From Deltaproteobacteria bacterium (GTDB lineage Bacteria; Myxococcota_A; Polyangia; Polyangiales; Polyangiaceae), in contig JACQWT010000086.1 of NCBI GenBank assembly GCA_016209145.1, positions 1 to 42,672 of the forward strand: a stretch of 42,672 nt of DNA, given 5' to 3'. The position numbers and the translations under genes were made by a program. Below, in pieces: positions 6,304-39,749 of this stretch (the first letter of the stretch is position 1; the number at the start of each line of letters is the position of its first letter). The notes below the pieces were generated by a model, which worked only from the letters and a program-made list of their open reading frames with translations, did no database searches and was not told where the DNA came from.

Positions 6304-9300
6304 GGGCCTCCCGCCGCGGCGACGACAAAGTCGCCGAAGAGCTGGCGGCGAGCGACCCAGGGCGTCTGTTTGCCGTTCGAGGCGGTCCGGACGCGCTCGG
6401 TGACGTAGTCCACGAGCTCGCCCACCTCCAGCGCTCCGCTGCGGTCGCGATCCGGCGCCTGGCCGCCGAGCGCCTCGAGCAGGGCCGCGGTGAACAGCCC
6501 GTGCCCTCCGGCGCCGAGCGGCGCCGCCGCCACCGGCTGCCCCTCCCAGGCAAGCTCCAGGCCGCGCGCCGTGCGCACGGCGCCTCCCGGGTGGGCCGCG
6601 GGTACCTCGAAGCTGAACTGTGCGCCGCGCGCCGCGGCGAGCACGAGCACGCCGGTGCGCTCGCCCGCGGCCAGGGCCCGGGCGAGCTCCTCGTTGGGCG
6701 CGACGATGTCCGTGGAAAGGTGGCCGGAGTGGCAGGCGTCGAGCAGCAAGAGCACGCGGCCGCGCACGCGGCCCAGGGCCTGCTCGATGCGGTCCCAGCC
6801 CACCCCGCCCTGCCGCGCGCCCTCGCGGCCGGGCGCGGCCGTGCTGGTGAGGTAGACCATCTTGCCGTCGCCGAGCCGGACGCCGTGCCCGGCCAGGAAC
6901 ACGAGCGCGAGGTCGTCCGGCCGCATGGCTGCCAGGGCGGCCAGGGAGGCAACGACGCTCTCCGGGGTCACCTGCTCGTCGACCAGCGTGGTGGCGTGCA
7001 GGCCGGCGAAAGGCCGGCCCGAGCCTGCCTGCGCCGCCATGGCGGTGGCGACGGCGCGCGCGTCGTCATCGGCGAAGTCGAGCTGCAGCTCCGGCGCGAG
7101 CCCCGGGTAGCGGCTCACCCCCAACGCAACGACCCACAAGTCCGGGCGCTCGGCCCGCGGCGCGCGGCAGTCGATGTCCGCGCTCCGGCCGTGGCTTGCC
7201 AGCCCCTCGGCGTCGTAGGCGATGGCCGTCACGCGGTTGCGGCCGGCGTGCAGGGGCACCTGGAGCGCCACCTGCGCTGCGCTCTGGCAGACGAGCTGCT
7301 CGCCGGCCGGCCGGCCGTCGACGAAGACGCGCACGCGCTCGACGCGTTGGGGCGAGGCCACCCGGGCACGCACGCTGATGGTGCGGGCGCTCGTGGTTGC
7401 CGGGGCGGAGCCGGCCGCGAGCTCGATGGTGGGCGGCCGGGCCAGCCGCCCGGCCGGCAGCGCGACGCCCGCCAGACGCTGCGCGACCAACTCCGGCCGG
7501 TCGAAGCGCGCCGCGAACTGCTCGAACGAAAACCCTTCGAGCGGATCGTCGAAGGTCCAGGCCACGCTGCGCGCCCCGTCCAGGCTGGACGCGAACTCGC
7601 CTTCGGGGGTGGCCGTCACGTAGTCGCCCTCCCCGGTGGCGGCGAGCACGGCGATGGGACGGCCTGCCGCCGCCGAGACGACGGTCAGTGCGCCACTCTC
7701 GCCGCCGAAGGCGAAGGTGCGCCCGGCGCCGTCCGCGGCCACGGCCCGCGCCACCGAGTCGGGCGTGGCGACCGGAGCGCGCAGCTCGAGCGACGGCCAG
7801 GCGAGCAGCGCCGGCCTCTTGCCCCCGAGCGCCACGAGATCGCCGTGCGCCACCACCGGGCCGGCGCTCGGCGCCTCGATCGTGCGCAGGGTTGCTCCGC
7901 TGCGGGCGTCGAGCACGATCAATGTGGGCCGGGGACGCACCGGCCCGCTCACGCCCGGCGGGAACTGGTCGCTCGAGAGCAGGATCTGCCGGCCGTCGGC
8001 CGAGAATGCCAGCCAGCGCTCCCGCGGCGCCGCGATCTCGATCTGCCTCCTCCAGCGCACCGCGCCGTTCTTCGTGCTGGCAAGCTCCACCTGCACCTCG
8101 CCGAAGACGCGTCCCTGCGGGGCCACGGTGCGGCTGCCCGCCACGAAGCCCACGGTCCGCAGCTCGTCCCGGGCGGCGACCGCCAGCCAGGCACCGTCGG
8201 GCGAAAGAGCAGCCGTAGCGTCGCGGTAGAGCGCCGCATCGGCCTTTGCTGCCGCGCTCGGAGCGCGCGCCGGTTGGGGAGCGATCTTTGCCCCGCCCAG
8301 GCTTCCCACGCTGGTGCCGGCCGGCCGGCCGAAGTCGGCGAACCGGTTGCTACCGGCCGGCCGCGGTCCGGGCGGCGCCGCGAGATCCCAGCGCATGATC
8401 TCACCCCGGGCATCGAGGCTCACGAGGGCGCGGGTGCCCGGGACGAAGCCGACGAACGCCACCGGGCTGCTCGCGTGCGCGTTCCACTGGCGATCGAGGG
8501 CGCCCGTGGCGGAAGAACGCACGCGTACGTACCAGGACCCGACGGTCTCGGCGACGAGCCCGCCCGAGTCGTCGTAGGAGAGCACCATGCGGCCGTGCCA
8601 CTCTTCGCCGCCGCCCGCGCCCTCCAGCGCCCCGGAGCGCAAGCTCCAGCGCTGGAGCCGCCCGTTGAACGAGCCGGCCGCAAGCTGGGTTGCGTCGGGG
8701 CGCATCGCCAGCGCCCAGGTCGCGTTGGTGCGCCCTTGCAGCGAGCGCAAGAGGCCGAGCGTCGCCCCGTCGCGCACTTGCAGGACGCGCTCGTCGGTTT
8801 CGGAGATGCCGAGCACCAAGGTGCTGGCGTCGGCGCTCGCCGCGATCCGATCGACCTTGAGATCGACGGGGAGCGGTAGCGCCGCGGGCGCTCCTGAGCC
8901 CATGTCCCAGGCCGCCAGGCGGCGCGTCATGTCGGCGGCGAGCAGGCGCGAGCCCAGCACGGACGAGCTCAGGAACGTGCCCGGGATGGTCCGCTCCGGC
9001 GCTCCGGGCGCGACGCCGACCAGGTGCAGCGCGCGCGCCGTGGACGCCGCGAGCGTGTCGTGGGCGAACACGAGCCGCGTGACCAGATCGGCCGGTCCCG
9101 CGAACCACGCCTGCGGCCAGCGCCGGATGACTCGCCACGCCTCGAGGTCGACCAGCGCCAGCTCCCCTTCGAGCGCCACCGCCAAGCGCCGGCCGGGCGG
9201 ATCGAGCGCGAGGGCCCGGACCACGCAGCGTTGCATCATGCAGGGCACGCTCGCCCGGGGGAAGTCGAGCTCACGCACTAGCGCGCCGCTCGAGGCATCG

Positions 9301-9884
9301 TGCTGGCGCAGCGTGCGTAGCCCGACGAACAGGCTGCGGCCGTCGCGCCCGAGCGCGATCGAGCCCGGGTCGGAGATGATCCTGGTCGCGCCGGTGCCCG
9401 CATCCACGATGCCGATGACCTCGCCGCTTCCTTGGTGGGCCCGGTACGCCAGCCGCTCGCCCGCGGCGTCGATGGACACCTCCAGGGTCATGCCTCCGGT
9501 CGCCACGCGGCGCAGCAACAGGCCCGTCGTCGTGTCCCACAGCCGCGCCGTGCCGTCCTGACCTCCGCTCACGAGCCGCCGGCCATCCGGGCTGAGCTCC
9601 GCCGCCATGACCGTGCCCGCGTGCCCGTCTTGCACCACCAGCGTGGCCCTTGCCCTGGCATCCGGCGCCGGAGGCGGGACCGAGTCGCAGCGCGCCGGGG
9701 GCGCTGACGCCCCGGCCGGTGCGGGGCTCGGTACGCCCGCCGCCAGCCGTGCGTCCACGGGCGCACGGGCGCCCGCCGCATCGCTGCGCCCGGTCGGGGC
9801 GATCACCACGGACACAGAAGGCGCGCCACAGGAGACGAGCAGCGCGATGACGAGTGGCCAGATCCTTGTGTCGAGCGTGCTCAC
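6300..9884 (-). CDS. WD40-repeat lipoprotein with C-terminal caspase-like (peptidase C14) domain
   Basis: N-terminal signal 'PLVIALLVSCGAP'; WD40 motifs ('GHAGTVMAAELSPDGRRLVSGGQDGTARLWDTTTG'); C-terminal 'VFLAGHG' and 'LLLLDACHSGHLS' catalytic His/Cys motifs. Confidence 0.88.
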   Translation of the reverse strand: MSTLDTRIWPLVIALLVSCGAPSVSVVIAPTGRSDAAGARAPVDARLAAGVPSPAPAGASAPPARCDSVPPPAPDARARATLVVQDGHAGTVMAAELSPDGRRLVSGGQDGTARLWDTTTGLLLRRVATGGMTLEVSIDAAGERLAYRAHQGSGEVIGIVDAGTGATRIISDPGSIALGRDGRSLFVGLRTLRQHDASSGALVRELDFPRASVPCMMQRCVVRALALDPPGRRLAVALEGELALVDLEAWRVIRRWPQAWFAGPADLVTRLVFAHDTLAASTARALHLVGVAPGAPERTIPGTFLSSSVLGSRLLAADMTRRLAAWDMGSGAPAALPLPVDLKVDRIAASADASTLVLGISETDERVLQVRDGATLGLLRSLQGRTNATWALAMRPDATQLAAGSFNGRLQRWSLRSGALEGAGGGEEWHGRMVLSYDDSGGLVAETVGSWYVRVRSSATGALDRQWNAHASSPVAFVGFVPGTRALVSLDARGEIMRWDLAAPPGPRPAGSNRFADFGRPAGTSVGSLGGAKIAPQPARAPSAAAKADAALYRDATAALSPDGAWLAVAARDELRTVGFVAGSRTVAPQGRVFGEVQVELASTKNGAVRWRRQIEIAAPRERWLAFSADGRQILLSSDQFPPGVSGPVRPRPTLIVLDARSGATLRTIEAPSAGPVVAHGDLVALGGKRPALLAWPSLELRAPVATPDSVARAVAADGAGRTFAFGGESGALTVVSAAAGRPIAVLAATGEGDYVTATPEGEFASSLDGARSVAWTFDDPLEGFSFEQFAARFDRPELVAQRLAGVALPAGRLARPPTIELAAGSAPATTSARTISVRARVASPQRVERVRVFVDGRPAGEQLVCQSAAQVALQVPLHAGRNRVTAIAYDAEGLASHGRSADIDCRAPRAERPDLWVVALGVSRYPGLAPELQLDFADDDARAVATAMAAQAGSGRPFAGLHATTLVDEQVTPESVVASLAALAAMRPDDLALVFLAGHGVRLGDGKMVYLTSTAAPGREGARQGGVGWDRIEQALGRVRGRVLLLLDACHSGHLSTDIVAPNEELARALAAGERTGVLVLAAARGAQFSFEVPAAHPGGAVRTARGLELAWEGQPVAAAPLGAGGHGLFTAALLEALGGQAPDRDRSGALEVGELVDYVTERVRTASNGKQTPWVARRQLFGDFVVAAAGGP

Positions 9885-12559: not shown

Positions 12560-15555
12560 CGCGGTCAAGCTCAAGCCGGGACAGAAGGACGCGCCCACCG
12601 TCCTGAGCCTCTCCGGCGGAGCGTACGACCTCGTGAGCCTGGAGGCCTCGAACCGGGCGCGGGTCGAGTGCCAGAGCCCGTGCGAGCTGCGCGTCGTGGA
12701 GAAGCTGGAGCTCGGCAACGATGCCTACCTCGGTCCGGCCGAGGGAAGCGATCTCGGGGCGGGCGATGTGGAGCTCTTCGTCGGCAGCATCAAGCAGGAC
12801 GGCAAGGGCAAGGACAAGGGGGCGCCGGTCAAGGACGCGGTCGTCATCGGCGCCGAGAGCAGCGTTCGCGCGCGTGGTATCCCATCGGTTTGGGCGGCTG
12901 GAGCCTGAGCCCGTATCACGGCTACGATTTGGGCGCGCACACCCTGTACCGCGGCGACGGCCGCCGGGTCAGTGGACAGGGGCCGAGCAGCGGGGGCCAG
13001 CTCGCCGCGGCGATCCGCACCGCAGCCGGTGGCAAGCCGTGCTGCAACCTGGGCGACGGTGGCCCGGCGCTCCAGGCGTATCTAACCCAGCCGCGCGGCC
13101 TGGCGCTCGACGCCGAGGGCAACCTGTACTTCGCCGATGAGCAAGCGCTGCGCGTGCGGCGCATTGACAAGGACGGCATCATCACGACGGTGGCGGGCAG
13201 GGGCGGCTACTCTGGCCCGCTCGGCGACGGCGGGCCGGCCACGGCGGCCAGGCTGCGCGCGCCGTGCGACGTGGCGCTCTACGAGCAGGGCAGCAAGCGC
13301 GGCCTGTACATCGCGGAGTCCGGCGACCAGCGCGTGCGCCACGTGGATCTCACGACCGGCATCATCACGACGGTGGCGGGCACAGGCGTGGCGGGCTTCT
13401 CTGGCGACTGGGGGCCGGCCCCGGCGGCGCGGCTCTACGGGCCGAGCAGCGTGGCGGTCGGCGCCGACGGCAGCCTGTACATCGCCGAGCTGAGCAACCG
13501 CCGGGTTCGTCGGGTCGCCGTCAGTCCGAGCGGCGTCGCCAACGGCGCCATCATGACGGTGGCCGGCGGCGGCGACGAGGGACTGTGGCTGAGCGGCCCG
13601 ACGCCCAAGCCGTCGGCACCGGCCACCAAGGTCTATCTTGCCTACCCGGTGAGCATTGCCGTGGGCGGACCCGATGGCAGCCTGTACATCGCCGACCAAG
13701 GGACAGGCGGCTCCGGGGTACGGATTTACCGGGTGACTCCGAACGGGGTGATGAGCATCTTCGCGGGCTGGGGACCGGCGGGCTACGCGCCTGACGGCAC
13801 GTCGGCCACGGTGCTGGAAGCGAAGCTCAACATGCCCGACGCGCTGGAGGTGACGCTCGACGGCGTGCTCTACTTCGTGGCAACCCTCGACCCGCAGGGC
13901 ACCTACGCCGTGCGTCGCATTGCCGGCGGGGTCATCAACACCGTCGTGGGAAGGCGCAACCCCAACTGCTACCAGGGAGTGTACTGCGGCGAGGGGGGGC
14001 CGCCGCGCGAGGCGCAGCTTGCGGTGCCGAGCGGGCTGGCGGTGCGGCTCGGCCAGGAGATCGACACGCCGTTCGAGAGCGAGGACCTGCTCTACATCGC
14101 CGACCGGGGCAGCCCGAGCCGGATCCTGCGCATTGACGCGCCCCTTCCCGGGGTGAAAATCGGCGAGCTCGCGGTGCCGAGCGAGGACGGCGCCGAGCTG
14201 TATGTCTTTAGCGAGCAGGCGCGGCACCTGCGCACGCTCGACGCCCTGAGCGGCAAGCCGCGCTACCAGTTCGAGCACGACGGCGACGGAAGGCTCCAGC
14301 AGATCACCGACGTGGACGGCCGCAAGACGAGCATCGTCTACGGCCCGGGCGGGGTGCAGAAGATCGTCGGCCCCTTCGGTCACGAGGCGCTGCTTGGGCT
14401 GCATGGGGACGGCTACCTGGCGAGCGTGACCGACCCTTCGGGCGCGAGCGAGAAGTTCGGCTACAACGCGCCGGACCAGGGGCTGATGACGAGCCGCACG
14501 GACGCCCGGGGCAACATCTACAGCTACTCCTACGACCCCAAGGGGCGGCTCACGCACGCCGCCGACCCGCCCGGCGCCAGCGGCGCGAAGAGCCTCGAGC
14601 GCACCGACACGGAGCCGAGCGGCAACGTCTTCCACCAGTACGCCGTCAAGCTCACCACGGCCCTGTGCCGGACGAGCAACTACGAGGTGACCACCAAGAC
14701 CGACCGCACGCGGCTGCTCGCCAACACCTTCCCGGACGGGCTCAAGGCCACATCGACGGTCCAGGCGAGTGGGAACCGGGCGACAACCCTGCCCGACGGC
14801 ACCGAGGTGTCGCCGAGCTACAGCCCCGACCCGCGCTTCAGCACGGCCGCGCCGCTGCCGTCGCTTGCCGTCAAGACGGGCGGCAAGAGCCTGACGGTCA
14901 CGACGCAGCGCGCGGCGGAGCTGCTCGTCCCGGAGAACCCTTTGAGCATCAAGAGCCTGACCGACGCCGTGGCCATCAACGGGCGCTCGTTCACGACGAC
15001 GTACCTGCCGGCCGCGACGAACAACCTGCCCTACGACCAGGTCGTGCGCACGACTCCTGCCGGCCGCAAGAGCATCACCGAGATCGATGCCAAGGGCCGG
15101 CCCATCAAGGTCACGGTGCCGAGCGCGCTTGGGCTGGTGCCGACCGAGTTCTTCTACTACGACCCCCAGCTCGATCCGAGCCAGCCCGGCGGCAAGCTGC
15201 GGGCCATCCGGCAGGTTGCCGGCGTCGAAGAGCGGCTCTACCAGCTCGTCTACGACCCGCAGGGCAACCTCGCGAGCATCGAGGCGCCACTGGGCAAGAG
15301 CGTCGGCTTTCAGTACGATCCTGTCGGCAGGGTGACGGCGAAGGTGATGCCGGACGGGAGCAAGGTGCGCTTTGCGTACGACGCAAGCCGCAACGTGACG
15401 GCGATCGCGGTGCCGGGCACACCGGAGCCGGCGCAGGCCGCCGAGCTCCATCGGCCCGCTGTACGACTCGGCCGGGCGGCTTTCGCACGTGCTCGTGCCG
15501 GGCGGGTCGGTGGACTACGGGTACGGCTGGGCGGGCAAGCTGCCAGGGCACGCCC
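12560..15555 (+). pseudogene. Decayed NHL/YD-repeat (RHS-type) protein fused to a fragment of another surface protein
   Basis: Frame 12633-12908 'YDLVSLEASNRARVECQSPCELRVVEKLELG...VVIGAESSVRARG' shifts near 12880 into an NHL ('GDGGPATAARLRAPCDVA', 'IITTVAGTG') and YD-repeat frame; second shift near 15440 into 'SIGPLYDSAGRLSHVLVPGGSVDYGYGWAGKL', then ends abruptly. Confidence 0.65.
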
Positions 15556-15591
15556 GTCTTGGCCGCCGTCCTGCTCCTGCCGTGGCGGGGC

Positions 15592-15619
15592 TTGACCGCG
15601 AGCGCGAATGAAATATAAT
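15592..15619 (+). promoter_or_regulatory. Sigma70-like promoter of the BzdR-like regulator gene (TTGACC-N16-TATAAT)
   Basis: TTGACC 15592-15597, TATAAT 15614-15619; the ATG at 15627 falls about where transcription would begin. Confidence 0.6.
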
Positions 15620-15626
15620 TCCTATC

Positions 15627-16547
15627 ATGTCGGTGCACGTGGCGCAGCCCGGTTGCGAGCCCTTGCCCGGCCGCCTCGGCCAGCGCGTGAGGGCGGCGCG
15701 GGCGCGGATCGGCATGACGCGGCGCGCTCTGTCGCAGGACGCCCGTGTCTCCGAGCGCTACCTGGCCCAGCTCGAGTCGGGCGCCGCCAACCCTTCGGTC
15801 GCCGTCCTGCGCCGCATCGCCAACGCCATGGCCCTGCCGCTCGTGGAGCTGGTGGCAGAGGAGGACGAGGATCCGGTCGAGCTCAAGCTGGCCGTGGCAG
15901 CGCTGCGCCGGCTTGCGCCGGAGAAGCTCGCCGAGGCGCGCCGCTTCCTCGAATCGACCTTCTCGCCCAAGAGCGGCGACCTGCGCGAGCGGCGTATCTC
16001 GCTGGTCGGCCTGCGCGGCGCCGGGAAGTCGACCCTGGGAGCGGTCGTGGCCCGCCGGCTCGGCGTTCCCTTCGTCGAGCTCGACCGCCTGCTGGAGCAG
16101 GAGCACGGTGCGGCCGTGGGCGAGATCCTGGCGCTCTACGGCCAGCCCGCCCTGCGTCGCTACGAGCGCGCCTGCCTCGAGCGCGTGACCGCCGAAACGC
16201 CCGCCGCCGTCATCGCTACCGGCGGCGGCATTGTCGGCTCGACCGCCTCCCTGGCGCTGCTTCTGGAGCGCACCCACTGCGTCTGGGTGCGCGCCACGCC
16301 CGAGGAGCACATGGCGCGCGTGGTGGCCCAGGGCGACTTCCGCCCCATGGCCCAGAACGCCGCGGCGATGGCCGATCTGCGCGCGATCCTGCACGCCCGT
16401 GAAGGGTTCTACGGCCAGGCCCACGCCGTGCTCGACACGGCCGGCCGGCCGCCCGCCCAGAGCGCGGAGGAGCTGCACCGCATCGCGCTCGGCCTCCTCG
16501 AAGGCCGGGTCAGCGGGATTGACTCGACCGCCGAACATGCACTATAG
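15627..16547 (+). CDS. BzdR/BoxR-like transcriptional regulator: XRE HTH fused to shikimate-kinase-like domain
   Basis: HTH 'LGQRVRAARARIGMTRRALSQDARVSERYLAQLESGAANPSVAVLRRIANAMALPL' followed by 'RRISLVGLRGAGKSTLGAVVARRLGVPFVELDRLLEQEHG...VIATGGGIV'; immediately upstream of a benzoyl-CoA reductase operon. Confidence 0.9.
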   Translation: MSVHVAQPGCEPLPGRLGQRVRAARARIGMTRRALSQDARVSERYLAQLESGAANPSVAVLRRIANAMALPLVELVAEEDEDPVELKLAVAALRRLAPEKLAEARRFLESTFSPKSGDLRERRISLVGLRGAGKSTLGAVVARRLGVPFVELDRLLEQEHGAAVGEILALYGQPALRRYERACLERVTAETPAAVIATGGGIVGSTASLALLLERTHCVWVRATPEEHMARVVAQGDFRPMAQNAAAMADLRAILHAREGFYGQAHAVLDTAGRPPAQSAEELHRIALGLLEGRVSGIDSTAEHAL

Positions 16548-16569
16548 TTCCAGTGTGGAGCGCATGCAC
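16519..16569 (+). promoter_or_regulatory. Putative bam promoter (TTGACT-N18-TATAGT) with two CATGCAC boxes (candidate BzdR-type operators)
   Basis: TTGACT 16519-16524, TATAGT 16543-16548; CATGCAC at 16536-16542 and 16563-16569, placed at the -10 and just before the bamB ATG. Confidence 0.5.
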
Positions 16570-16571
16570 CG

Positions 16572-18578
16572 ATGAGGTACGCAGATACAGGCTTCAACCT
16601 GGAGGTCGATCTCACCCGGGGCAGCGTCGAGCGGGTGCCCACCGATCCCCGGTTGGTCGAGCTCTACCTCGGCGGTCTCGGCACCAACGCCAGGATATCC
16701 TGGGACAGAGTCGCGCCCGAGATCGAGCCCTTCGCGCCGGAGAATCTCCTCATGTTCGGCGCCGGGCTGCTGGCCGGCACGCCTGCCCCCGGCGGCAACC
16801 GCACCGTCGTCTCGACCATCTCCCCCCAGACGCGCCTCTTCGCGTTCTCCATGATGGGCGGCTACTGGGGCCCCGAGCTCAAGCACGCCGGCTACGACAA
16901 GGTGGTCCTGCGCGGCAGGTCTCCCGCACCGGTCTACCTGTGGATCCGCAACGACAAGGTCGAGCTGCGCGACGCCTCTCACCTGCGTGGCCTCGGGACC
17001 CTGGAAACCGCCGAGCTCCTCCGCCAGGAGCTCGACGAGCCCGGAGCCCAGGTGGCCTCCATCGGCCTCGCCGGTGAGAACCGCGTCTACTTCGCCTCCA
17101 TCGAGCAGGGCCGCTCCAGCGCGAGCCGGCTCGGCGTCGGCGCCGTCATGGGTGACAAGAACCTCAAGGCGATCGCCGTGCGCGGCACGAAGGACATCTA
17201 CATCGCCCGGCCGGCCGAGTTCATGGAGCTGTGCCAGGAAGCCCTGCAGTACATCAAGGCCCGCGAGAAGAGCCCGATCCCCGGGGTCATGCCCATTCTC
17301 GCCGGCCTGGGATCGCCGCAGGAGATGGCGGTGCACGACGAGAAGTGGCACACCGAGAACTTCGCCTGGGGCAATGCCCGCACCCGCCGCAAGGACTTCT
17401 GGACCGACGAGGTCCAGTCGCGCTGGACCAACACCATGGAGACGATGCGGCGCCGGCTCCTGAGCTGCCACAACTGTCCCATGAAGTGCGGGGCCGCCAT
17501 TTCGGTCACGGGCCTGTGCACCTACATGATGAAGTGCTTCTCGAAGCTGACCTACACGATGGCGGCCATGTCCGACCTCAACTTCGGCCTGCGCATCGCC
17601 CAGAAGGCCACGGAGCACGGCGTCGACGCGTTCTCCGCCCCGCAGGTCATGGCCTTCGCCATCGAGCTCTACGAAGCGGGGATCCTGACCGACAAGGATA
17701 TGCCGGGAATGCCCTCCGACAGCGAGGGGAGATTCTACTGGCTGCTCGACCGGATCGTGCGGCGCGAAGGCATAGGAGACATCCTGGCCAACGGCACGTA
17801 CTGGGCGGCCGAGCAGATCGGGAAGGGTGCACCGGCGTACGCGCACAACAACATCAAGAAGACCGAGCAGCTCCCGCTCAAGCTGGGCATGCTGAACCCA
17901 ATCTACTTCCTCATGTACTGCACCGGCGAGAAGGCCAACATCACCCAGATCGAGGGCAACTTCCCGCAGGCGCCGTTCACCACGAGGGAGGAGCGCGAGG
18001 CCTTCGTGCGGGGGTGGGTGCAGGTGCCCGACGAAAGGTTCAAGCAGTGGCTCCTGGAGTGGGAGCCGCGCGGCGAGCGCTCGATCCCCTACTACCCGCC
18101 GGTCGACGCCACCTGCGAGATCGTCAACTGGCAGGAGATGCTGCACTACCTCGACGACGCCACGGGGCTGTGCGCCGGGCTGTCGTCATTCCCGTTGAAG
18201 CCGCCGTACCATATCCACAATCTTCCGCGCCTGATCTCGGCCGGGACGGGCCTCGGCCTGGACGAGGCCGGCCTCATGCAGGTCGCCAAGCGCAACCGGA
18301 CGCTCGTCCGGGCGATCAACGTGCGCCGCGGGCTGCGGCGGGGGGACGAGAAGCCTCCGGAGGACCACTGGAGGAAGAGGTTTCCCGAGCTCGAGGCGAA
18401 GCTGCTGGACGAGTACTACAGGTTCAAGGGCTGGAACCGCGACGGTATTCCCACCCGGGAGACGCTGCAGGAGCTGGCCCTCGGCGACGTCGCCGAGGAT
18501 CTGGTGCGCCGTGGCGTCTTGCGCGCCGACGAGGACGCCGCCTCCGGGACCCGCGGCGGCGAAGGAGGCGGGCCGTGA
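16572..18578 (+). CDS. bamB: Benzoyl-CoA reductase class II catalytic subunit BamB (tungsten AOR family)
   Basis: 'MRYADTGFNLEVDLTRGSVERVPTDPRLVELYLGGLGTNARISWDR', 'ASIEQGRSSASRLGVGAVMGDKNLKAIAVRGTKD', 'SCHNCPMKCG', 'AGLSSFPLKPPYHIHN' closely resemble remembered Geobacter BamB. Confidence 0.93.
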   Translation: MRYADTGFNLEVDLTRGSVERVPTDPRLVELYLGGLGTNARISWDRVAPEIEPFAPENLLMFGAGLLAGTPAPGGNRTVVSTISPQTRLFAFSMMGGYWGPELKHAGYDKVVLRGRSPAPVYLWIRNDKVELRDASHLRGLGTLETAELLRQELDEPGAQVASIGLAGENRVYFASIEQGRSSASRLGVGAVMGDKNLKAIAVRGTKDIYIARPAEFMELCQEALQYIKAREKSPIPGVMPILAGLGSPQEMAVHDEKWHTENFAWGNARTRRKDFWTDEVQSRWTNTMETMRRRLLSCHNCPMKCGAAISVTGLCTYMMKCFSKLTYTMAAMSDLNFGLRIAQKATEHGVDAFSAPQVMAFAIELYEAGILTDKDMPGMPSDSEGRFYWLLDRIVRREGIGDILANGTYWAAEQIGKGAPAYAHNNIKKTEQLPLKLGMLNPIYFLMYCTGEKANITQIEGNFPQAPFTTREEREAFVRGWVQVPDERFKQWLLEWEPRGERSIPYYPPVDATCEIVNWQEMLHYLDDATGLCAGLSSFPLKPPYHIHNLPRLISAGTGLGLDEAGLMQVAKRNRTLVRAINVRRGLRRGDEKPPEDHWRKRFPELEAKLLDEYYRFKGWNRDGIPTRETLQELALGDVAEDLVRRGVLRADEDAASGTRGGEGGGP

Positions 18579-19117
18579 GCCAGGCGGGAACCAGAACCGT
18601 GAAGACCATACGGGTCGACGCGGACAAGTGCAACGGCTGCCAGGCCTGTGAGGTGATCTGCTCGGCCTTTCATGCCAGGCCGAAGAACAGCAGCAACAAC
18701 CCGGCCCGGGCGCGCATACGTGTCGTGCGCGATCCCATCGCGGACATCTTCCTGCCGGTGTACGCCGGCGGCTACGCCGCGGCCGAGTGCGCCGGCAGGA
18801 TGCGGTATGCCGTTGACGGCAAGGCCTACGGCGAGTGCGCGCTGTGCCGGGCCTCATGCCCGTCGCGCGACATTTTCAAGGAGCCCGACTCGGGCCTGCC
18901 GCTCAAGTGCGACATGTGCGAGTCGGAGCCGCCGCTTTCCGAGCCGATGTGCGTGCAGTGGTGCCTGAACGGCGCTCTGAGCTACGAGGAGCGACCGGCA
19001 CAGGCCGGCGCGGAGGCGGGGCCGAGCGAGCTCGATGCCGGCCTGCAGGCGATGGCCGACCGGCATGGCTGGGAGAGCGTGCGGGGTGCGGTGGCCCGGA
19101 TGTCTGGGCGGCGCTAG
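18575..19117 (+). CDS. bamC: BamC, multi-[4Fe-4S] electron transfer subunit
   Basis: GTG overlaps the bamB TGA; 'TIRVDADKCNGCQACEVICSAFHARPKNSSNNPARARIRVVRD', 'CALCRASCPSRDIFKEPDSGLPLKCDMCE'. Confidence 0.88.
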   Translation: MSQAGTRTVKTIRVDADKCNGCQACEVICSAFHARPKNSSNNPARARIRVVRDPIADIFLPVYAGGYAAAECAGRMRYAVDGKAYGECALCRASCPSRDIFKEPDSGLPLKCDMCESEPPLSEPMCVQWCLNGALSYEERPAQAGAEAGPSELDAGLQAMADRHGWESVRGAVARMSGRR

Positions 19118-19138: not shown

Positions 19139-20290
19139 GTGGAAACCGTAACCCCGTACGAGGAGATCATCGGGCTCGTCAGGGAGGCCGGCGGCGAGGA
19201 CTACAAGCTGTGCTACCAGTGCGGCAAGTGCGACGCCGTCTGCCCCTGGAACAGGGTCCGGGCCTTCAGCATGCGGAAGATAGTGCGGCAGGCGAGCCTC
19301 GGGCTGAGCGAGATAGAGCAGGAGGAGATTTGGCGCTGCACCACGTGCGGCGCCTGCGTCGCGCAGTGCCCGAGGGGGGTGCCGCAGATCAGGATCGGAG
19401 TGTCGCTGCGCCGGATCGCGACGCAGTATGGCGTGTTCCCGGACATGATCCGCGCCGCGGGCACGGCGGCGGCCGCGCTGCGCATCGACCGCAACCCGCT
19501 GGGGGAACCGGCCGGGCGGCGGGCGGACTGGGCGAAGGGGCTGCCGGTCAAGACGTTCACGGAGGGCACCGACCTCCTGTTCTTCGTCGGCTGCTACTAC
19601 AGCTACGATCCACGGCTCAAGAAGGCGGCGGCGGCGACGGCGCGCATTCTCGCCAAGGCGGGCGTGGACTTCGGGATACTCGGGGAGGCGGAGAGCTGCT
19701 GCGGCGAGAGCATGCGCAAGACCGGGGGCGAGGCCGTGTTCCGGGGGCTCGCCCGGGAGAACATCAAGGCCTTCATCGACCGCGGGGTGAGGAGGATCCT
19801 GGTCTGCTCGCCGCACTGCTACGAGACGTTCCGGCGCGACTACGCGGATCTCATGGTGAGCTTCGACGTGGTCCACGTCTCCCAGTACCTGTTGAGGCTC
19901 ATGGACGAGGGGCGGCTCGTGCCCGCCAAGGAGTACCGGCGTCGGGTCGCCTACCACGACCCCTGCTACCTCGGCCGCCACAACGGCATCTACGAGGAGC
20001 CGCGTGAGGTGCTGCGCCGGGTGCCGGGGCTGGAGCTGGTGGAGATGAGCGATCGGCGGCAGGGCAGCCTCTGCTGCGGCGGCGGCGGGGGCGGGATCTG
20101 GACGGAGACCGCGAAGGCCGAAAGGCTCGCGAACCTGCGGCTGGCGCAGGCCCGCGAGGCCGGCGCACAGGTGCTGGCGACGGCGTGCCCCTATTGCATC
20201 GCGAACTTCGAGGACAGCCGGCTGACGCTGGGATACGAGGAGGTCGTGGAGGTGAGAGACATTACGGAGATTGTGGACGAGGTGGTGTAG
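19139..20290 (+). CDS. bamD: BamD, HdrD/GlpC-like Fe-S protein with CCG domains
   Basis: 'CYQCGKCDAVCPW', 'CTTCGACVAQCPRG', 'FFVGCYYSYDPRLKKAAAATARILAKAGVDFGILGEAESCCGES', 'SLCCGGGGGGIW'. GTG start. Confidence 0.88.
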   Translation: METVTPYEEIIGLVREAGGEDYKLCYQCGKCDAVCPWNRVRAFSMRKIVRQASLGLSEIEQEEIWRCTTCGACVAQCPRGVPQIRIGVSLRRIATQYGVFPDMIRAAGTAAAALRIDRNPLGEPAGRRADWAKGLPVKTFTEGTDLLFFVGCYYSYDPRLKKAAAATARILAKAGVDFGILGEAESCCGESMRKTGGEAVFRGLARENIKAFIDRGVRRILVCSPHCYETFRRDYADLMVSFDVVHVSQYLLRLMDEGRLVPAKEYRRRVAYHDPCYLGRHNGIYEEPREVLRRVPGLELVEMSDRRQGSLCCGGGGGGIWTETAKAERLANLRLAQAREAGAQVLATACPYCIANFEDSRLTLGYEEVVEVRDITEIVDEVV

Positions 20291-20329
20291 GGCTATCTGG
20301 TCGACAGCGCGCCTACCATCGGCGGGAAG

Positions 20330-23245
20330 ATGGCGCAGCTCGACAAGACCTTCCCCACCAACGACTGCTCCATGTGCATCGAGTCGCCCAAGTTCATCGA
20401 GTGCGACCGGCACCCCAACATCGAGATCCTCACCTACACGGAAGTCGCCAGCGTGGCCGGGCAGGCAGGCGACTTCCGGGTGACGCTGCGGAGAAAGCCG
20501 CGCTACGTACGCGAGGACCGGTGCACCGGCTGCACGGTCTGTGCGGAGTACTGCCCGGTGGAGGTGCCCGACCGATTCAATCAGGGGCTGTCGGGCGCCA
20601 AGGCCGTGCACATCTACTTCGCGCAGGCCGTGCCGCTGGTTCCATTCGTCGACGAGCGCTGCCTCTACCTGCGGGAAGAGAAGTGCTCGATCTGCGCGGC
20701 GGTATGCAAGAACAACGCCATAGATCTCCACGACCAGGCCACAACCGAGGAGATCCGTGTAGGCGCGATAGTGCTCGCGCCAGGATACTCGGCTTTTGAC
20801 CCGGCGGCGAGAGGCGACCATGGGTACGGCCGGCTTGCCAACGTTGTCACGAGCCTCGACTTCGAGCGGCTCCTTTGCGCCACCGGGCCGCACCAGGGGG
20901 AGATCCTGCGCCCCTCGGACCGGAGGCATCCGCGCAGCATTGCCTGGCTGCACTGCGTTGGCTCCCGACAGGTGCTGGAGGGCGGTAGGAGCTACTGTTC
21001 GTCGGTGTGTTGCTCGTACATCCAGAAGCAGGTGATCCTGGCGAAGGACCACGACGCGGCGACGCGGGTGACGGTGTTCCACAATGACATCCGCTCCTAC
21101 GGGAAGGATTTCGAGCGGTTCTACCGGAGGGCCGAACGGCTGCCGGGAGCAAGATTCCTGCGCAGCTACGTGGCGGTCGCGGGGGAGGAGCCCGGCACCA
21201 AGAACGTCAGGGTCAGATACGCCACGACGGCGGCGGGGGTGAAGGAGGAGGAGTTCGAGATGGTCGTGCTGGGGGTGGGCCTCTGTCCGCCGGAGGGCGC
21301 GGAGGTCCTTGCCCGGCAGTTCGGGATCGAGCTGACGGCGCACGGATTCTGCAAGACGAATCCGATGAATCCGATCGAGACGACGCGTCCCGGCATATTC
21401 GTGTGCGGGGCCTTCCTCGGCCCGATGGATATTCCCGAGTCGGTCATGGCGGCAAGCGGGGCGAGCGCTTTGGTAGGGGCGCTGCTCGGCTACCGGCGGG
21501 GCCGGCTGGCCCGGGAGAGGACTTACCCGCCCGAGAGGGAGGTCGGGGGCGATGAGGCGAGGGTGGGGGTGTTCGCGTGCCATTGCGGCGCCAACATCGG
21601 ACGGGTGGTGGACGTTCCGGGGCTGGTGGAGTACACGAGGACGCTGGAGCACGTGGTACATGCCGAGGAAGGCCTGTTCGTGTGCTCGACGGACGCCGCG
21701 GCGCAGATCGCGAAGACGGTGCGGGAGAAGCGGCTCAATCGCGTGGTGGTGGCCGCGTGCACCCCGCGCACGCACGAGCCGCTGTTCCGCGACACGCTGC
21801 GCGAGGGCGGGATCAACCAGTACTTCTTCGACATGGCCAACATCCGGGAGCACTGCTCCTGGGTGCACTCCCGGGAGAAGGAGGAGGCGTGCCGGAAGTC
21901 CCGGGACATCGTGCGGATGTCGGTCGCGCGCGCGGCGCGCCTGGAGCCGCTCCAGGAGCTCGATCTTCCCGTCCACAAGGCGTGTCTGGTGGTGGGCGGG
22001 GGCGTGGCGGGCATGACGAGCGCGCTGGCGCTGGCGGAGCAGGGCTTCGCGGTTCACCTGGTGGAGCGCAGCGGCGAGCTGGGCGGCATGGCGCGCCGCC
22101 TGCGCTACTCGCTGCAGGGTCTGGACGTGCGGGGGTATCTGCGCGAGTTGGTGGGGCGCGTATATCGGCACCGGCTCATCCAGGTATGCCACGAGGCGAC
22201 GATCGCAGAGGTGTCCGGCTTCGTGGGCAGCTTCGTGACCACGGTACGATCGGAGGGGCGGGCGCAGCAGATCCGGCACGGCGCGGCCATCCTGGCCACG
22301 GGCGCGGCGGAGCATCGCCCCACGGAGTACCTCTACGGGACCGACGACCGGGTGCTGACGCAGCTCGAGCTGGAGGAGCGGATTGGCCGAGGAGACGAGG
22401 CGCTGGCGGGGTGCACGAGCGTGGTGATGATCCAGTGCGTCGGCTGTCGGGAGGAGCAGCGCAGCTACTGTGCCCGGGTGTGCTGTAGCCACGCGATCAA
22501 GAACGCGCTCCGGCTCAAGCGGATTCGTCCTCAGATGGCGGTGTACGTTCTTTTCCGGGACATGAGAACCTACGGCTTCGCCGAGGACTACTACCTCGAG
22601 GCCGCGCGGCGCGAGGTCAGGTTCGTGCGCTGGGAGCCGGAGGGCAGGCCGGAAGTTGAGGCCGTCGAGGAGGGCGGCAGGCGGGTCCTGCGGGTGACGG
22701 TGGCCGACCCGGTTCTGGGCCAGAGGCTGGCGCTCGACGCCGACCTGCTGGTTCTGTCCGCCGCCGTGGTGCCGTCGCCGGGCAGCCTGGATGCCGCCCG
22801 GCTGTTCAAGGTTCCGCTCAGCCCCGACGGCTTCTTCCAGGAGGCGCACGTCAAGCTGCGTCCGGTTGACTTCGCCGCCGACGGGATCTTCCTGTGCGGC
22901 AGCGCGCACTACCCCAAGCACATGGCCGAGGCGATCGCGCAAGCGTACGGCGCCGCCGGGCGCGCGGCGAGCCTGCTCGCGCAGGACTGCGTCAGAGCTT
23001 CGGGCGCCGTATGCGCGGTGGCAGAGGCCGATTGCGTGGCGTGCGGCGCCTGCGTCACGGCCTGCGCGTACGGCGCGATCGAGCTGCGGGAGACGCCCGC
23101 CGGCAAGAAGGCGAGAGTCAATGCCGCGCTGTGCAAGGGGGACGGCGTGTGCAACGCCTGGTGCCCGACGCGGGCCATTGTGCTGCGGCACTTCACCGAC
23201 GCGCAAATCTGTGGTCAAATCGACGCGGCCCTGTCGGGGCCGTGA
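20330..23245 (+). CDS. bamE: BamE, tandem HdrA-like flavin/Fe-S electron bifurcation subunit (first HdrA unit truncated at N-terminus)
   Basis: 'MAQLDKTFPTNDCSMCIESPKFIECDRHPNIEILTYTEV' (HdrA), ferredoxin 'DRCTGCTVCAEYCPVEVP', second HdrA unit 'VGVFACHCGANIGRVVDVPGLVEY ... CLVVGGGVAGMTSALALAEQG'. Confidence 0.87.
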   Translation: MAQLDKTFPTNDCSMCIESPKFIECDRHPNIEILTYTEVASVAGQAGDFRVTLRRKPRYVREDRCTGCTVCAEYCPVEVPDRFNQGLSGAKAVHIYFAQAVPLVPFVDERCLYLREEKCSICAAVCKNNAIDLHDQATTEEIRVGAIVLAPGYSAFDPAARGDHGYGRLANVVTSLDFERLLCATGPHQGEILRPSDRRHPRSIAWLHCVGSRQVLEGGRSYCSSVCCSYIQKQVILAKDHDAATRVTVFHNDIRSYGKDFERFYRRAERLPGARFLRSYVAVAGEEPGTKNVRVRYATTAAGVKEEEFEMVVLGVGLCPPEGAEVLARQFGIELTAHGFCKTNPMNPIETTRPGIFVCGAFLGPMDIPESVMAASGASALVGALLGYRRGRLARERTYPPEREVGGDEARVGVFACHCGANIGRVVDVPGLVEYTRTLEHVVHAEEGLFVCSTDAAAQIAKTVREKRLNRVVVAACTPRTHEPLFRDTLREGGINQYFFDMANIREHCSWVHSREKEEACRKSRDIVRMSVARAARLEPLQELDLPVHKACLVVGGGVAGMTSALALAEQGFAVHLVERSGELGGMARRLRYSLQGLDVRGYLRELVGRVYRHRLIQVCHEATIAEVSGFVGSFVTTVRSEGRAQQIRHGAAILATGAAEHRPTEYLYGTDDRVLTQLELEERIGRGDEALAGCTSVVMIQCVGCREEQRSYCARVCCSHAIKNALRLKRIRPQMAVYVLFRDMRTYGFAEDYYLEAARREVRFVRWEPEGRPEVEAVEEGGRRVLRVTVADPVLGQRLALDADLLVLSAAVVPSPGSLDAARLFKVPLSPDGFFQEAHVKLRPVDFAADGIFLCGSAHYPKHMAEAIAQAYGAAGRAASLLAQDCVRASGAVCAVAEADCVACGACVTACAYGAIELRETPAGKKARVNAALCKGDGVCNAWCPTRAIVLRHFTDAQICGQIDAALSGP

Positions 23246-23276
23246 CTGCCGAGCAATGAGCCAGAAGGAGGACAAG

Positions 23277-24071
23277 ATGTCTACCGGACTCGCGTTCCAG
23301 CCGAGAGTCGTGGCGTTCTTGTGCCACTGGTGAGCGTACTCCGCTTCGGACCTGGCTGGAGTTTCCAGACAACAGTATTCACCGGCAACGAGAATAATCC
23401 GGCTCATGTGCACCGGCCGGGTAGATCTGGCCTTCGTGCTGCGGGCCTTTGCCAAAGGAGCAGACGGCGTTCTGATAGGTGGCTGCTGGCCGGGCGAGTG
23501 CCACTACGTGACGGAGGGAAACTACGACGCCCTGGCCAACACACATCTGTGTCGCAAGCTGCTGGGCCACATCGGCGTGAGCCCGGAGAGGCTCAGGCTC
23601 GAGTGGATCTCGGCGGCGCAGGGGAGCCGCTTCGCCGAAGTGACGTCGGAGCTCGCGCAGGCGCTGCAGGCGCTGGGGCCGCTGGGAAGTGGCGTCGGGT
23701 CGGACGGGAAGAGGCTGGCGCGCCGGCTCGAGGCGCTGGGGCGGCTGGTGCCGTACCTGAAGCTCGTGGCGCGAGCCAGGCTGCGCCCGCCGGTGAGATC
23801 GGAGCAGGCGTACAACGCGTTCTTCGGGGGCGCGCAGTTCGGCCGGGTGTTCGACGAGCTCATCGCCGACCGAGTGGCGGCGAGCCAGATCGTGGTGCTG
23901 CTCGCACAGGGGCGGCGCACGAGCGCGGAGATCGCCGCGGACTTGGGACTGAGCGCGTCGGAGGTGGCGAGGCACATGAACGGCCTGTCGCGCGCGGGGG
24001 TGGTGGCATATGAGGCGGCTCGCAGGTGCTATGCCCTGCGGGCGCACGAGGCGGAGAGCAGTGGGTTGTAA
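23277..24071 (+). CDS. bamF: BamF, MvhD-like selenoprotein (UGA=Sec at codon 19) with C-terminal winged-helix domain
   Basis: RBS AGAAGGAGG before ATG 23277; MSTGLAFQPRVVAFLCHW-U(TGA 23331-23333)-AYSASDLAGVSRQQYSPATRIIRLMCTGRVDLAFVLRAFAKGADGVLIGGCWPGECHY... in one frame to TAA 24071; MvhD family has 'C-x-W-C/U-x-Y..ADLAG..R'. Confidence 0.92.
23331..23368 (+). promoter_or_regulatory. Candidate bacterial SECIS: UGA followed by CTGGA-GTT-TCCAG hairpin
   Basis: TGA 23331-23333; perfect 5-bp stem 23356-23360/23364-23368 with loop G-T-T at 23361-23363, 27 nt between UGA and loop. Confidence 0.65.
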
Positions 24072-24314
24072 CCGTTCACGCATTTCGGCGCCAGCAACGA
24101 CGGCTCGCCAGGCGGCCGTGATCGCGGCTTTCGTCCTCGGCCCGGCTCCTCACGTACAGAAGTACGCTCCGGGCCGGGCCTCCGGGCGCGCTCGCGCTGG
24201 CCGTCCCTGCGGGACGGGGTTCGGGTCCCGACGCGCGCTGTGCGCGCGTCACCCGTGCCCCGGCCGCCTGACGAGCCGGCTGGGAGAATGCGTGAACGGT
24301 TACAGTGGGTTGTA
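24059..24314 (+). mobile_element. MITE-like element (~232 bp) with terminal inverted repeats and ~12-bp target duplication, inserted at the bamF stop codon
   Basis: GTAACCGTTCACGCATT (24068-24084) / AATGCGTGAACGGTTAC (24287-24303) perfect 17-bp inverted repeat; CAGTGGGTTGTA at 24059-24070 and 24303-24314. Confidence 0.82.
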
Positions 24315-24320
24315 GTGGCC

Positions 24321-24773
24321 ATGGATATCGAGCGGGTTGACGAGATCGTGGCGCGCCACGGCGCCGAGCCGAGCTCTCTCGTCCAGGTGCTACTGGACAT
24401 CCAGAGGGAGAACCGCTGGCTGCCGCGCGAGGCGCTGCGCCGGGTGAGCGGAAGGCTAGGGGTGCCGCTGGCGCGGATAATGCACATCGCCACCTTCTAC
24501 AAGGCGTTCAGCCTCGTGCCCAAGGGACGGCACGAAGTCCACGTCTGCATGGGCACGGCGTGCCACGTGCGGGGGGCGGCGCGGGTGCTCGACAAGGTGC
24601 AGGACCTGACGGGGATCCGACCGGGAGACACGGACCTCGGGCTGAACTTCAGCTTGGAGACGGTGAACTGCCTGGGCTGCTGCGCGCTGGGGCCCGTCAT
24701 GGAGATCGACGGCCGGACCCACGGCAAGCTGTCGCCGGCGCGCACGGCCGAGGTGCTGAAGGGCTATGCGTAG
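24321..24773 (+). CDS. bamG: BamG, NuoE-like [2Fe-2S] subunit
   Basis: 'MHIATFYKAFSLVPKGRHEVHVCMGTACHVRGAARVLDKVQDLTG', 'FSLETVNCLGCCALGPVMEIDG'. Confidence 0.88.
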   Translation: MDIERVDEIVARHGAEPSSLVQVLLDIQRENRWLPREALRRVSGRLGVPLARIMHIATFYKAFSLVPKGRHEVHVCMGTACHVRGAARVLDKVQDLTGIRPGDTDLGLNFSLETVNCLGCCALGPVMEIDGRTHGKLSPARTAEVLKGYA

Positions 24774-24782
24774 GAGCAGGCG

Positions 24783-26723
24783 ATGGCGCGGATAGGCTCG
24801 CCCCAAGAGCTGGCAAAGTACCGGGAGCAGGTGCTGGCGGCCCGGCGCGCAGATGCGCCGCGCATTTCCGTCTGCGCGGGGACGGGGTGTCTCGCCTCCG
24901 GGGCGGCGGAGGTGGTGGGGACGGTGAAGACCGAGCTCGTTCGGGCGGGCCTCGCGGGGAGCGTCGGCTGTAGGGGAACCGGCTGCCACGGCTTCTGCGA
25001 GAGGGGCCCCCTCATCGTGGTCGAGCCCGAGGAGATCTGCTACGTGCAGGTGAAGCCGGATGACGTCCCGGAGATCGTGGCCCGGACCGTACAGGGCAAG
25101 GAGGTAGTGGAACGGCTCCTGTACGTGGATCCGGCGACGGGCGAGCGGGTGCGCTGCGAATCGGACATCCCGTTCTACCGGAATCAAGAGCGGCGGGTGT
25201 TCGGGGCGAATCGGAGGATAGATCCGCGCAGCATCGAGGACTACGTCGGCATCGGCGGATATCGGGCGCTGGCGAAGGCGCTGTGCGAGATGACGCCGGC
25301 GCAAGTGATTGCGGAGGTCAAGGAGTCGAAGCTTCGGGGCCGGGGCGGGGCGGGGTTCCCGACGGGGCTCAAGTGGGAGGCTACGCGACGCGCCGCCGGG
25401 CAGCCCAAGTACGTCGTGGTCAATTGTGACGAAGGGGACCCCGGCGCGTACATGGACCGATCGCTGATGGAAGGGAACCCGTTCGCGGTGCTCGAGGGCC
25501 TCGTGATTGGCGCGTACGCGATCGGGGCGCACGAGGGCTACGTCTATGTGCGCCAGGAGTATCCGCTGGCGGTGGAGAACCTGGCCATTGCCATCGCCCA
25601 GGCCGAGGGCCACGGCCTGCTCGGCGCGAACGTGCTCGGCTCGGGGTTCGACTTCCACGTCAGGGTACACCGCGGGGCGGGGGCATTCGTATGCGGGGAG
25701 GAGACGGCGCTGCTCCTGTCTCTGGAGGGAAACGCGGGGCAGCCACGGCCGCGGCCCCCGTATCCGGCCGTGAGCGGGCTCTGGGGCAAGCCGACCAACA
25801 TCAACAACGTGGAGACGTGGGCCACGGTTCCCTCGATCATCAACGAGGGCGCCGTGGCCTTTGCCTCGATAGGCACCGAGGGGAGCAAGGGGACGAAGAT
25901 CTTCTCGCTCGTGGGGAAGATAGTCAACACGGGACTGGTCGAGGTGCCCATGGGGATCACCCTGCGGGACATCGTCTACAAGATCGGCGGTGGCGTACCT
26001 GGCGGGAAGAAGCTCAAGGCCGTGCAGACCGGCGGACCGTCCGGCGGATGCATCCCGGAGGCAGGGCTTGACGCACGGGTGGACTTCGACGAGCTCACGC
26101 GGGCCGGCTCGATGATGGGGTCGGGCGGCATGATCGTCATGGACGAGGATACCTGCATGGTCGATGTCGCCCGGTACTTCGTCCGCTTCCTCACCGACGA
26201 GTCATGCGGGAAGTGTGCGCCGTGCCGCGAGGGCTTGCGGCAGATGCACCGGCTTCTGACGCAGATCACCGAGGGCAGGGGGAAGGAGGGCGATCTCGAG
26301 GTCTTGCAGGAGCTGGCCGATCTCGCCCAGGATGCGTCGCTGTGCGGGCTCGGGAAGACGGCGGCGAACCCGTTCCTGAGCACCTTCCGGTACTTCCGGG
26401 AGGAATACGAGGCGCACATCAAGGAGAAGAGGTGCCCGGCCCTGTCGTGCAAGGCGCTCACCGCCTACTGGATCGACCCCGCGAAGTGCCAAGCCTGCCT
26501 GATCTGCCTGCGCGCTTGCCTGGAGGGGGCGATCGACGGCGGGAAGAAGAGGATCCACGTGATCGACCAGGATAGGTGCACGAATTGCGGAACGTGCTTC
26601 GAGGTGTGCCCTTCCCGTTTCGGGGCGGTGATGAAGATCTCGGGCGTGCCCGTGCCGGCGCCTATCGCCGAGCAGGAAAGAGCCATCGCGAGGGGTCGCA
26701 GGCAAGCGAGGACGCTACCGTGA
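24783..26723 (+). CDS. bamH: BamH, NuoF-like NADH-binding FMN/Fe-S subunit
   Basis: 'LRGRGGAGFPTGLKWEATRRAAGQPKYVVVNCDEGDPGAYMDRSLMEGNP', 'GAGAFVCGEETALLLSLEGNAGQPRPRPPYPAVSGLWGKPTNINNVET', 'ESCGKCAPCREG', C-terminal 2x[4Fe-4S]. Confidence 0.92.
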   Translation: MARIGSPQELAKYREQVLAARRADAPRISVCAGTGCLASGAAEVVGTVKTELVRAGLAGSVGCRGTGCHGFCERGPLIVVEPEEICYVQVKPDDVPEIVARTVQGKEVVERLLYVDPATGERVRCESDIPFYRNQERRVFGANRRIDPRSIEDYVGIGGYRALAKALCEMTPAQVIAEVKESKLRGRGGAGFPTGLKWEATRRAAGQPKYVVVNCDEGDPGAYMDRSLMEGNPFAVLEGLVIGAYAIGAHEGYVYVRQEYPLAVENLAIAIAQAEGHGLLGANVLGSGFDFHVRVHRGAGAFVCGEETALLLSLEGNAGQPRPRPPYPAVSGLWGKPTNINNVETWATVPSIINEGAVAFASIGTEGSKGTKIFSLVGKIVNTGLVEVPMGITLRDIVYKIGGGVPGGKKLKAVQTGGPSGGCIPEAGLDARVDFDELTRAGSMMGSGGMIVMDEDTCMVDVARYFVRFLTDESCGKCAPCREGLRQMHRLLTQITEGRGKEGDLEVLQELADLAQDASLCGLGKTAANPFLSTFRYFREEYEAHIKEKRCPALSCKALTAYWIDPAKCQACLICLRACLEGAIDGGKKRIHVIDQDRCTNCGTCFEVCPSRFGAVMKISGVPVPAPIAEQERAIARGRRQARTLP

Positions 26724-27313
26724 GCGAATTCGTCGTCGAGCTCGATGGCAGGCGGGTCACGGTACGGGAGGGAACGACCGTCCTGGGGGCGGCGCGCCAG
26801 GCGGGCGTGTTCATACCAACACTATGTCGCCGCGAGGAGTTGGCGCCCTATGGGGGGTGCCGGCTCTGCCTCGTGGAGTCCGAGGGCCGCGGCGGGAGGA
26901 AGCTCGTCGCCTCGTGCGTGCATCCGGTAGAGGAGGATCTGGTAGTCAGAACCAGATCGGGGAAGATCGATAGGCTGCGGAAATTGCTGCTGGAGCTCTT
27001 CCTGGCTCACGCGCCGGAGGCGGCGGTATTGCGGGAGCTCGGTCGGGAGTATGGGGCAGACGCGACACGTTTCGTGGGCGAGGGGTCGTTCTGCGTGCAT
27101 TGCGGCTTGTGTGTGAGGTACTGTGCGCAGGTGGAGAAGAAGGACGCGGTTGGGTTCGTCGAGAGAGGAACGAAGAAGGAGATCGCTTTCGTTCCCGAGA
27201 TTGCGTCTCGTGAGTGCGCCGCCTGCAAGCGGTGCTTCCCGCTGTGCCCGACGTCGTATCTTCAGGCCGCGTACGTGTTGATCCAGGGACTGGCGTTTCC
27301 GGCGGGTTGCTGA
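26720..27313 (+). CDS. bamI: BamI, NuoG-like (short) Fe-S subunit
   Basis: GTG overlaps the bamH TGA (GTGA); 'TTVLGAARQAGVFIPTLCRREELAPYGGCRLCLVE', 'SFCVHCGLCVRYCAQV', 'CAACKRCFPLCPT'. Confidence 0.87.
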   Translation: MSEFVVELDGRRVTVREGTTVLGAARQAGVFIPTLCRREELAPYGGCRLCLVESEGRGGRKLVASCVHPVEEDLVVRTRSGKIDRLRKLLLELFLAHAPEAAVLRELGREYGADATRFVGEGSFCVHCGLCVRYCAQVEKKDAVGFVERGTKKEIAFVPEIASRECAACKRCFPLCPTSYLQAAYVLIQGLAFPAGC

Positions 27314-29782: not shown

Positions 29783-29948
29783 GAACTAGCAACCAGGAAC
29801 AGGAGCGAGAACGTAGAACACGGAACGCAACGCCAGCGCAAGGGCGACGACATCGCCGACCGACTCCTCGATCTCGCAGCAGCGCTGGCCAAGGTGCTTC
29901 CCGCGCTCGGCAATTCGCATTGTGCGTTGGCGTTCTTGTTGCTAGTTC
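29783..29948. repeat. Inverted-repeat-flanked intergenic unit, possible four-helix-bundle (23S IVP-like) protein remnant inside
   Basis: GAACTAGCAACCAGGAAC (29783-29800) vs reverse complement of GTTCTTGTTGCTAGTTC (29932-29948); internal peptide 'GDDIADRLLDLAAALAKVLPALG'. Confidence 0.4.
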
Positions 29949-29982
29949 CTAGTTGTCCGGCAGTGGTGCCAGCCCGCCCGCC

Positions 29983-30996: not shown

Positions 30997-31061
30997 GGCC
31001 GCCCTCGCGGGCTTGCGGATCTGCCAGTCCCGGCGGCGATGTCCAGGGGGCCCAGCGCCGG

Positions 31062-32413: not shown

Positions 32414-32505
32414 TGCAGCAGCTATTAGCCGTTAGCTGTTGGCTCGGAAACCCCTCGTCTCGCCCTCCGGGGCCAACTGCCAACCGCTGGCTGCCAACGG
32501 CCGTG

Positions 32506-36270: not shown

Positions 36271-36333
36271 AGCCGCTCGCCGTTGGCTATTGGCCGTTGG
36301 CCGAGGTCCTGAAGCCCCTCGAAACTCCTCATC

Positions 36334-38632: not shown

Positions 38633-38634
38633 GC

Positions 38635-39732: not shown

Positions 39733-39749
39733 GGTGGTCGGCCGCAGCG

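Follow-up and report, generated by a model that had tools for sequence, protein, structure and literature searches.

The published regulators of benzoyl-CoA reductase genes are BzdR for the bzd operon, and BamVW and BgeR for bam (PMC6678401, PMC4424350). In Azoarcus/Aromatoleum sp. CIB, BzdR has a helix-turn-helix (HTH)–linker–shikimate-kinase-like architecture, its gene lies directly upstream of the class I bzd operon, and it acts at three operator regions, with TGCA operator sequences on the −10/start region and operator OR1 covering the −10 region (PMC6678401). BoxR, the regulator of the aerobic box pathway, belongs to the same family, and the BoxR/BzdR operator consensus in Betaproteobacteria is ATGCACTATAGTGCAT (Suvorova and Gelfand 2019, PMC6449761). 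The switching-on of class II (tungsten, ATP-independent) reductase genes is known only from Geobacter, where BamVW is a two-component system and BgeR is another repressor, neither of them described as an HTH–shikimate-kinase protein (PMC4424350, PMC6678401).

Here we describe a BzdR/BoxR-type regulator gene 24 bp upstream of a class II bamBCDEFGHI operon in a myxobacterium-like genome of 7.93 Mb (92% complete, 8% contamination). The two lie on contig C547, whose 42,672 nucleotides constitute the window analysed (Table 1). We consider it probable that the product of this gene is a repressor of the BzdR/BoxR family that acts mainly on the adjacent bam operon and has benzoyl-CoA, or a close aroyl-CoA, as its inducer. 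The locus resembles that of BzdR in protein architecture, in gene position and in its predicted TGCA-type operator on the −10/start region, but differs from it in the class of the operon and in the host, and has one 16 bp site and one half-site rather than three operator regions. It shares family and operator consensus with BoxR, and most retrieved relatives are box-associated, but the adjacent operon is anaerobic and the genome has no boxB match. With the Geobacter systems the candidate would have in common the control of bam genes encoding a class II reductase. The regulator family is thus already known, and its partner operon is new. The first-pass annotation had pointed to such a regulator immediately upstream of bam, noting that bam is controlled differently in Geobacter (by BamVW/BgeR, in agreement with PMC6678401), and had called the pairing potentially undescribed. 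The assignment is supported by architecture, family score, a lost Mg-binding Asp, position and a genome-unique operator. As for novelty, no description of a BzdR/BoxR regulator paired with a class II reductase was found in the open-access literature, the scope of our search, and priority is likely but not certain; the pairing is nevertheless not unique, a similar one being present in a Rhodocyclaceae genome described below.

Table 1. Features of the regulator–bam region of the window.
Feature	Coordinates	Strand	Evidence or remarks
Sigma-70-like promoter of regulator gene, TTGACC-16-TATAAT	15592..15619	+	11/12 consensus bases; shuffles mean 0.0
BzdR/BoxR-type regulator, 306 aa	15627..16547	+	residues 16-81 XRE HTH, then a linker; residues 122-283 shikimate-kinase-like
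TGCA half-site just past predicted regulator transcript start	15634..15637	+	weak inference
Sigma-70-like bamB promoter, TTGACT-18-TATAGT	16519..16548	+	overlaps regulator gene 3′ end; not produced by shuffles
Predicted operator ATGCACTATAGTTCCA	16537..16552	+	covers −10 box of bamB promoter
Second TGCA half-site	16565..16568	+	between predicted transcription start and bamB ATG
bamB, catalytic subunit, tungsten-type class II benzoyl-CoA reductase	16572..18578	+	PDB 4z3w match
bamC, Fe-S protein	18575..19117	+	61-67% to relatives' bamC
bamD, HdrB-like (CCG domains)	19139..20290	+	domain/profile matches
bamE, HdrA-like; N terminus with GxGxxG missing	20330..23245	+	profile match, comparison with relatives
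bamF, MvhD/FlpD-like; in-frame TGA 23331-23333 (probable selenocysteine)	23256..24071	+	domains, relatives
bamG, NuoE-like	24240..24773	+	
bamH, NuoF-like	24783..26723	+	domain/profile matches
bamI, NuoG N-terminal-like Fe-S subunit	26720..27313	+	domain match, relatives

The regulator and its shikimate-kinase-like domain

The regulator reading frame is intact from its ATG to a TAG stop codon at 16545–16547. The interval given earlier, 15627–16571, has the correct start but runs beyond the gene, 16571 being the base preceding the bamB ATG. The fusion of an HTH with a shikimate kinase domain that had been noted there is recovered by Pfam (HTH_3, residues 21–75, 3e-10; SKI, residues 130–283, 4.9e-35), and the HTH invariant residues S42, R44, E50 and N55 are all present. 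The NCBIfam profile NF006015, ‘anaerobic benzoate catabolism transcriptional regulator’, scores 355.1 bits against a cut-off of 204. This is the only match above the cut-off in the genome, and there is none in any of 14 control genomes.

Could the protein instead be a true shikimate kinase that has gained an HTH and forms part of the aromatic amino-acid (aro) gene set of the same contig? Its SKI domain retains Walker A, the second Asp of the DxD motif, GGG, the lid Arg and the Arg136-equivalent, and no aroK was recognised among the aroF, aroC, aroA, aroDE and aroB genes at 29.9–40.5 kb. However, there are several reasons to regard this as very improbable. First, the Mg-binding Asp of shikimate kinases (the first D of DxD) is replaced by Glu (Glu151), as it is in all 105 relatives. 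Second, a distinct shikimate kinase with an intact DxD is encoded on another contig (C318) of the same genome. Third, the aro genes are oppositely oriented and more than 13 kb away. Fourth, no shikimate kinase model scores above 94 bits, against 355 for the regulator profile. Finally, CBzdR was without shikimate kinase activity when measured in the laboratory, and binds benzoyl-CoA (Durante-Rodriguez et al., PMC3602430). The Glu substitution, together with the separate kinase gene, therefore suggests that the regulator is not an AroK, and we propose that its shikimate-kinase pocket is catalytically dead.

The −10 box of the regulator's own predicted promoter lies only about 8 bp before the ATG, which points to a possible leaderless mRNA or to a translation start further in. 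The TGCA half-site just past the predicted start of this transcript hints weakly at possible autoregulation. Just before the regulator lies an RHS/NHL-repeat protein gene (12668–15618) with a seemingly frameshifted, probably broken 3′ end.

The bam operon and the predicted operator

As had been supposed from the sequence, the operon downstream of the regulator is of class II and not class I. BamB matches Geobacter BamB (PDB 4z3w) over its full length at 1132 bits, whereas the best other aldehyde oxidoreductase scores 215 bits, and BamC to BamI are all found, in order and on the regulator's strand. Two of the genes are unusual. First, bamE lacks some 34 residues at its N terminus, among them the GxGxxG FAD motif, which most readable relatives retain. 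The gap (20288–20330) abuts the bamD stop codon and may reflect either a true deletion or an error of assembly, so that the operon may be in decay or wrongly assembled, although this bears on whether the enzyme works and less on the regulator. Second, the in-frame TGA of bamF falls within a CxWxxY motif; TGA is found there in eight further bam loci from the phylum and Cys codons in others, and the TGA probably encodes selenocysteine. Of the pathway genes elsewhere, a BamA/Oah hydrolase is encoded on contig C414 (508 bits, above cut-off), together with a dienoyl-CoA-hydratase-like gene whose score of 191 bits is below its cut-off of 292.

The most informative feature lies at the junction of regulator and operon. 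The 16 bp sequence ATGCACTATAGTTCCA, which covers the −10 box of the predicted bamB promoter, agrees with ATGCACTATAGTGCAT at 13 of 16 bases, the leading 12 being identical, the consensus being betaproteobacterial and the host myxobacterium-like. Its right half is imperfect (TTCC for TGCA), and a box-associated relative (L070) carries nearly the same imperfect form, ATGCACTATAGTTCCG. When the genome (7.9 Mb) was scanned for ATGCACTATAGTGCAT with up to three mismatches, this was the only site; shuffled windows yielded none. The reversed control pattern has two chance sites genome-wide, so it is not surprising that some site occurs somewhere; what is surprising is that the sole site falls on the bamB promoter, the chance of which we estimate at about one in tens of thousands. 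The match is an independent test, because the consensus was derived from other genomes and the expected position from earlier footprints. This predicted operator, of the family's type, unique in the genome and placed on the bamB promoter, is the strongest support for reading the gene as a BzdR/BoxR-type repressor of bam.

The same observations bear on the possibility that the protein is a BoxR acting mainly on an aerobic box pathway, or on a ligase elsewhere, its position beside bam being due to chance. Most of its relatives adjoin boxC/boxB, and BoxR and BzdR cross-regulate in Azoarcus (PMC6449761). We nonetheless judge this improbable, given that no second operator exists in the genome at up to three mismatches and that a myxobacterial BoxB query matches nothing in the genome (at 92% completeness, absence is not proven). 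There are no box genes within the window, and it is the class II bam operon, not a class I bzd operon, that adjoins the regulator.

Returning to a repressor of bam, and by analogy with characterised BzdR, from which repression, dimer binding, the benzoyl-CoA inducer and release are carried over, its action may be pictured as follows. In the absence of inducer, the repressor would occupy the predicted operator, and perhaps also the TGCA at 16565, so that RNA polymerase would be blocked at the bamB −10 box; binding would depend on the sequence ATGCACTATAGT (inside 16480–16600). Accumulating benzoyl-CoA, or a close aroyl-CoA, would then occupy the dead shikimate-kinase pocket, the change would be relayed via the linker, and the repressor would leave the DNA, allowing bamBCDEFGHI to be transcribed. 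There is no operator site, even at up to four mismatches, at the bamA locus on contig C414, and the rest of the pathway would thus escape the regulator's control.

It is also conceivable, though unlikely, that the protein does bind at the bamB promoter but responds to a different arylcarboxyl-CoA, or that it is an activator. Effector specificity is not readable from sequence, BamB-type enzymes are diverse, and residue 176 of the regulator is Leu where 104 of the 105 relatives have Tyr or Phe. Against this, the full-length closeness of BamB to the Geobacter enzyme and the presence of BamA fit benzoyl-CoA, and an operator overlapping the −10 box fits repression, both BzdR and BoxR being repressors. 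A benzoyl-CoA-responsive repressor remains our preferred reading. With sensor, operator and operon so close together, the switching-on of a class II operon becomes testable in vitro using one protein and 100 bp of DNA.

Distribution and history of the pairing

The operator motif is not peculiar to this locus. Among 80 loci of regulator relatives there are 30 sites (up to three mismatches) in the 69 kb beside the regulators and three in the 905 kb further off; the sites adjoin 26 of the 80 regulator genes, in several phyla, compared with an average of 0.1 loci and a maximum of two for shuffled palindromes. The betaproteobacterial BoxR motif stands beside the regulator in box loci from SAR324, Acidobacteriota, Myxococcota and Planctomycetota (L055, L061, L063, L065, L067 and L074), so that sensor and site are conserved across phyla. 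Nearly all of the relatives' loci with sufficient flank adjoin box genes, and no bam genes are present in the flanks (up to 10 kb) of the 80 loci, which are from GTDB genomes. On plasmids no BamB was found, and regulator relatives were limited to Mycetohabitans and one Methylobacterium.

The converse comparison begins from bam. Of 318 genomes from the host's class, 15 encode a BamB (E ≤ 1e-150), the window's genome counted, as do 10 of 250 Rhodocyclaceae genomes. None of 16 other myxobacterial bam genomes has a BzdR/BoxR-type regulator beside bam; three of them (G527, G528 and G088) have a BoxR away from bam, in each case adjoining boxC/boxB. Nine of the ten Rhodocyclaceae bamB genomes encode a BzdR/BoxR somewhere, and only one, G713, has it beside bam. 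In four of the bam loci scanned (L101, L185, L186 and L193) the upstream neighbour of bamB is instead a TetR_C_24 regulator (compare MbdR), a single regulator directly upstream as in the window, where a BzdR-type protein takes the TetR's place. These TetR_C_24 genes, in Myxococcota and Rhodocyclaceae, are candidate uncharacterised bam regulators.

The locus in G713 is a second candidate pairing, with weaker geometry, and the pairing is thus rare but not unique. There, a second BzdR-type gene (386 bits) adjoins a class II bam cluster (L196/L197), as in the window, and a palindromic ATGCAATATGATGCAT lies about 300 bp ahead of bamD, with bamA further on but close by. Among the bam loci of other genomes, a site at up to three mismatches occurs only here (L189). 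The arrangement differs from that in the window in that the cluster is rearranged and has the regulator at its far end, and in that a BoxR accompanied by box genes is encoded in the genome as well.

The phylogeny with BzdR/BoxR that had been put forward as a check places the protein with them. In a tree of 60 sequences (none labelled as Azoarcus CIB BzdR) the regulator falls within the proteobacterial-type BzdR/BoxR set with support of 100/100, its exact sister not being resolved, and away from the native Myxococcota and Planctomycetota regulators, which form a separate set (100/100). The closest protein by identity (55%) is from Rhodocyclaceae (L215). BamB of the window, in contrast, groups (100/100) with myxobacterial BamB from genomes of its own family and phylum; named loci within these clades indicate that the phylum is Myxococcota. 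The two genes therefore have different histories, and the simplest account of these trees is transfer of the regulator: an ancestor with a bam operon of myxobacterial type would have acquired it from a BzdR/BoxR lineage of proteobacterial type. Mis-binning of the contig was considered and is argued against by the nearest relatives of BamB and of the flanking AroA, both in same-family genomes.

The regulator gene, with its family's predicted operator on the bamB promoter, suggests that a widespread benzoyl-CoA sensor has been redirected to an enzyme of another class. We give about even chances to a broader proposal, that BzdR/BoxR is a portable sensor recruited independently at least twice (in a myxobacterium and in Rhodocyclaceae) to class II bam, where it replaced other regulators and carried its operator along. 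If this is true, a single sensor family would serve each of the three routes of benzoyl-CoA dearomatisation (class I, class II and box) across phyla. Two Rhodocyclaceae BzdR/BoxR-type genes (L215 and L218) adjoin benzoate-CoA-ligase clusters with no neighbouring box or bam genes.

Several other features of the window were recorded. A selB gene for the selenocysteine-specific elongation factor (4366–6303; TIGR00475, 300 bits, cut-off 242) lies on the same contig as the probable selenoprotein gene bamF, 17 kb upstream of it. It is followed by a gene for a 1194 aa protein with WD40 repeats and a caspase domain (Peptidase_C14), at 6300–9884 on the minus strand. The aro genes (aroF, aroC, aroA, aroDE and aroB) share the region 29942–40458, minus strand, with a TetR gene, and an EcoRI-type restriction enzyme and a D12 methyltransferase (36334–38193), of lower GC3, are located between aroDE and aroB.
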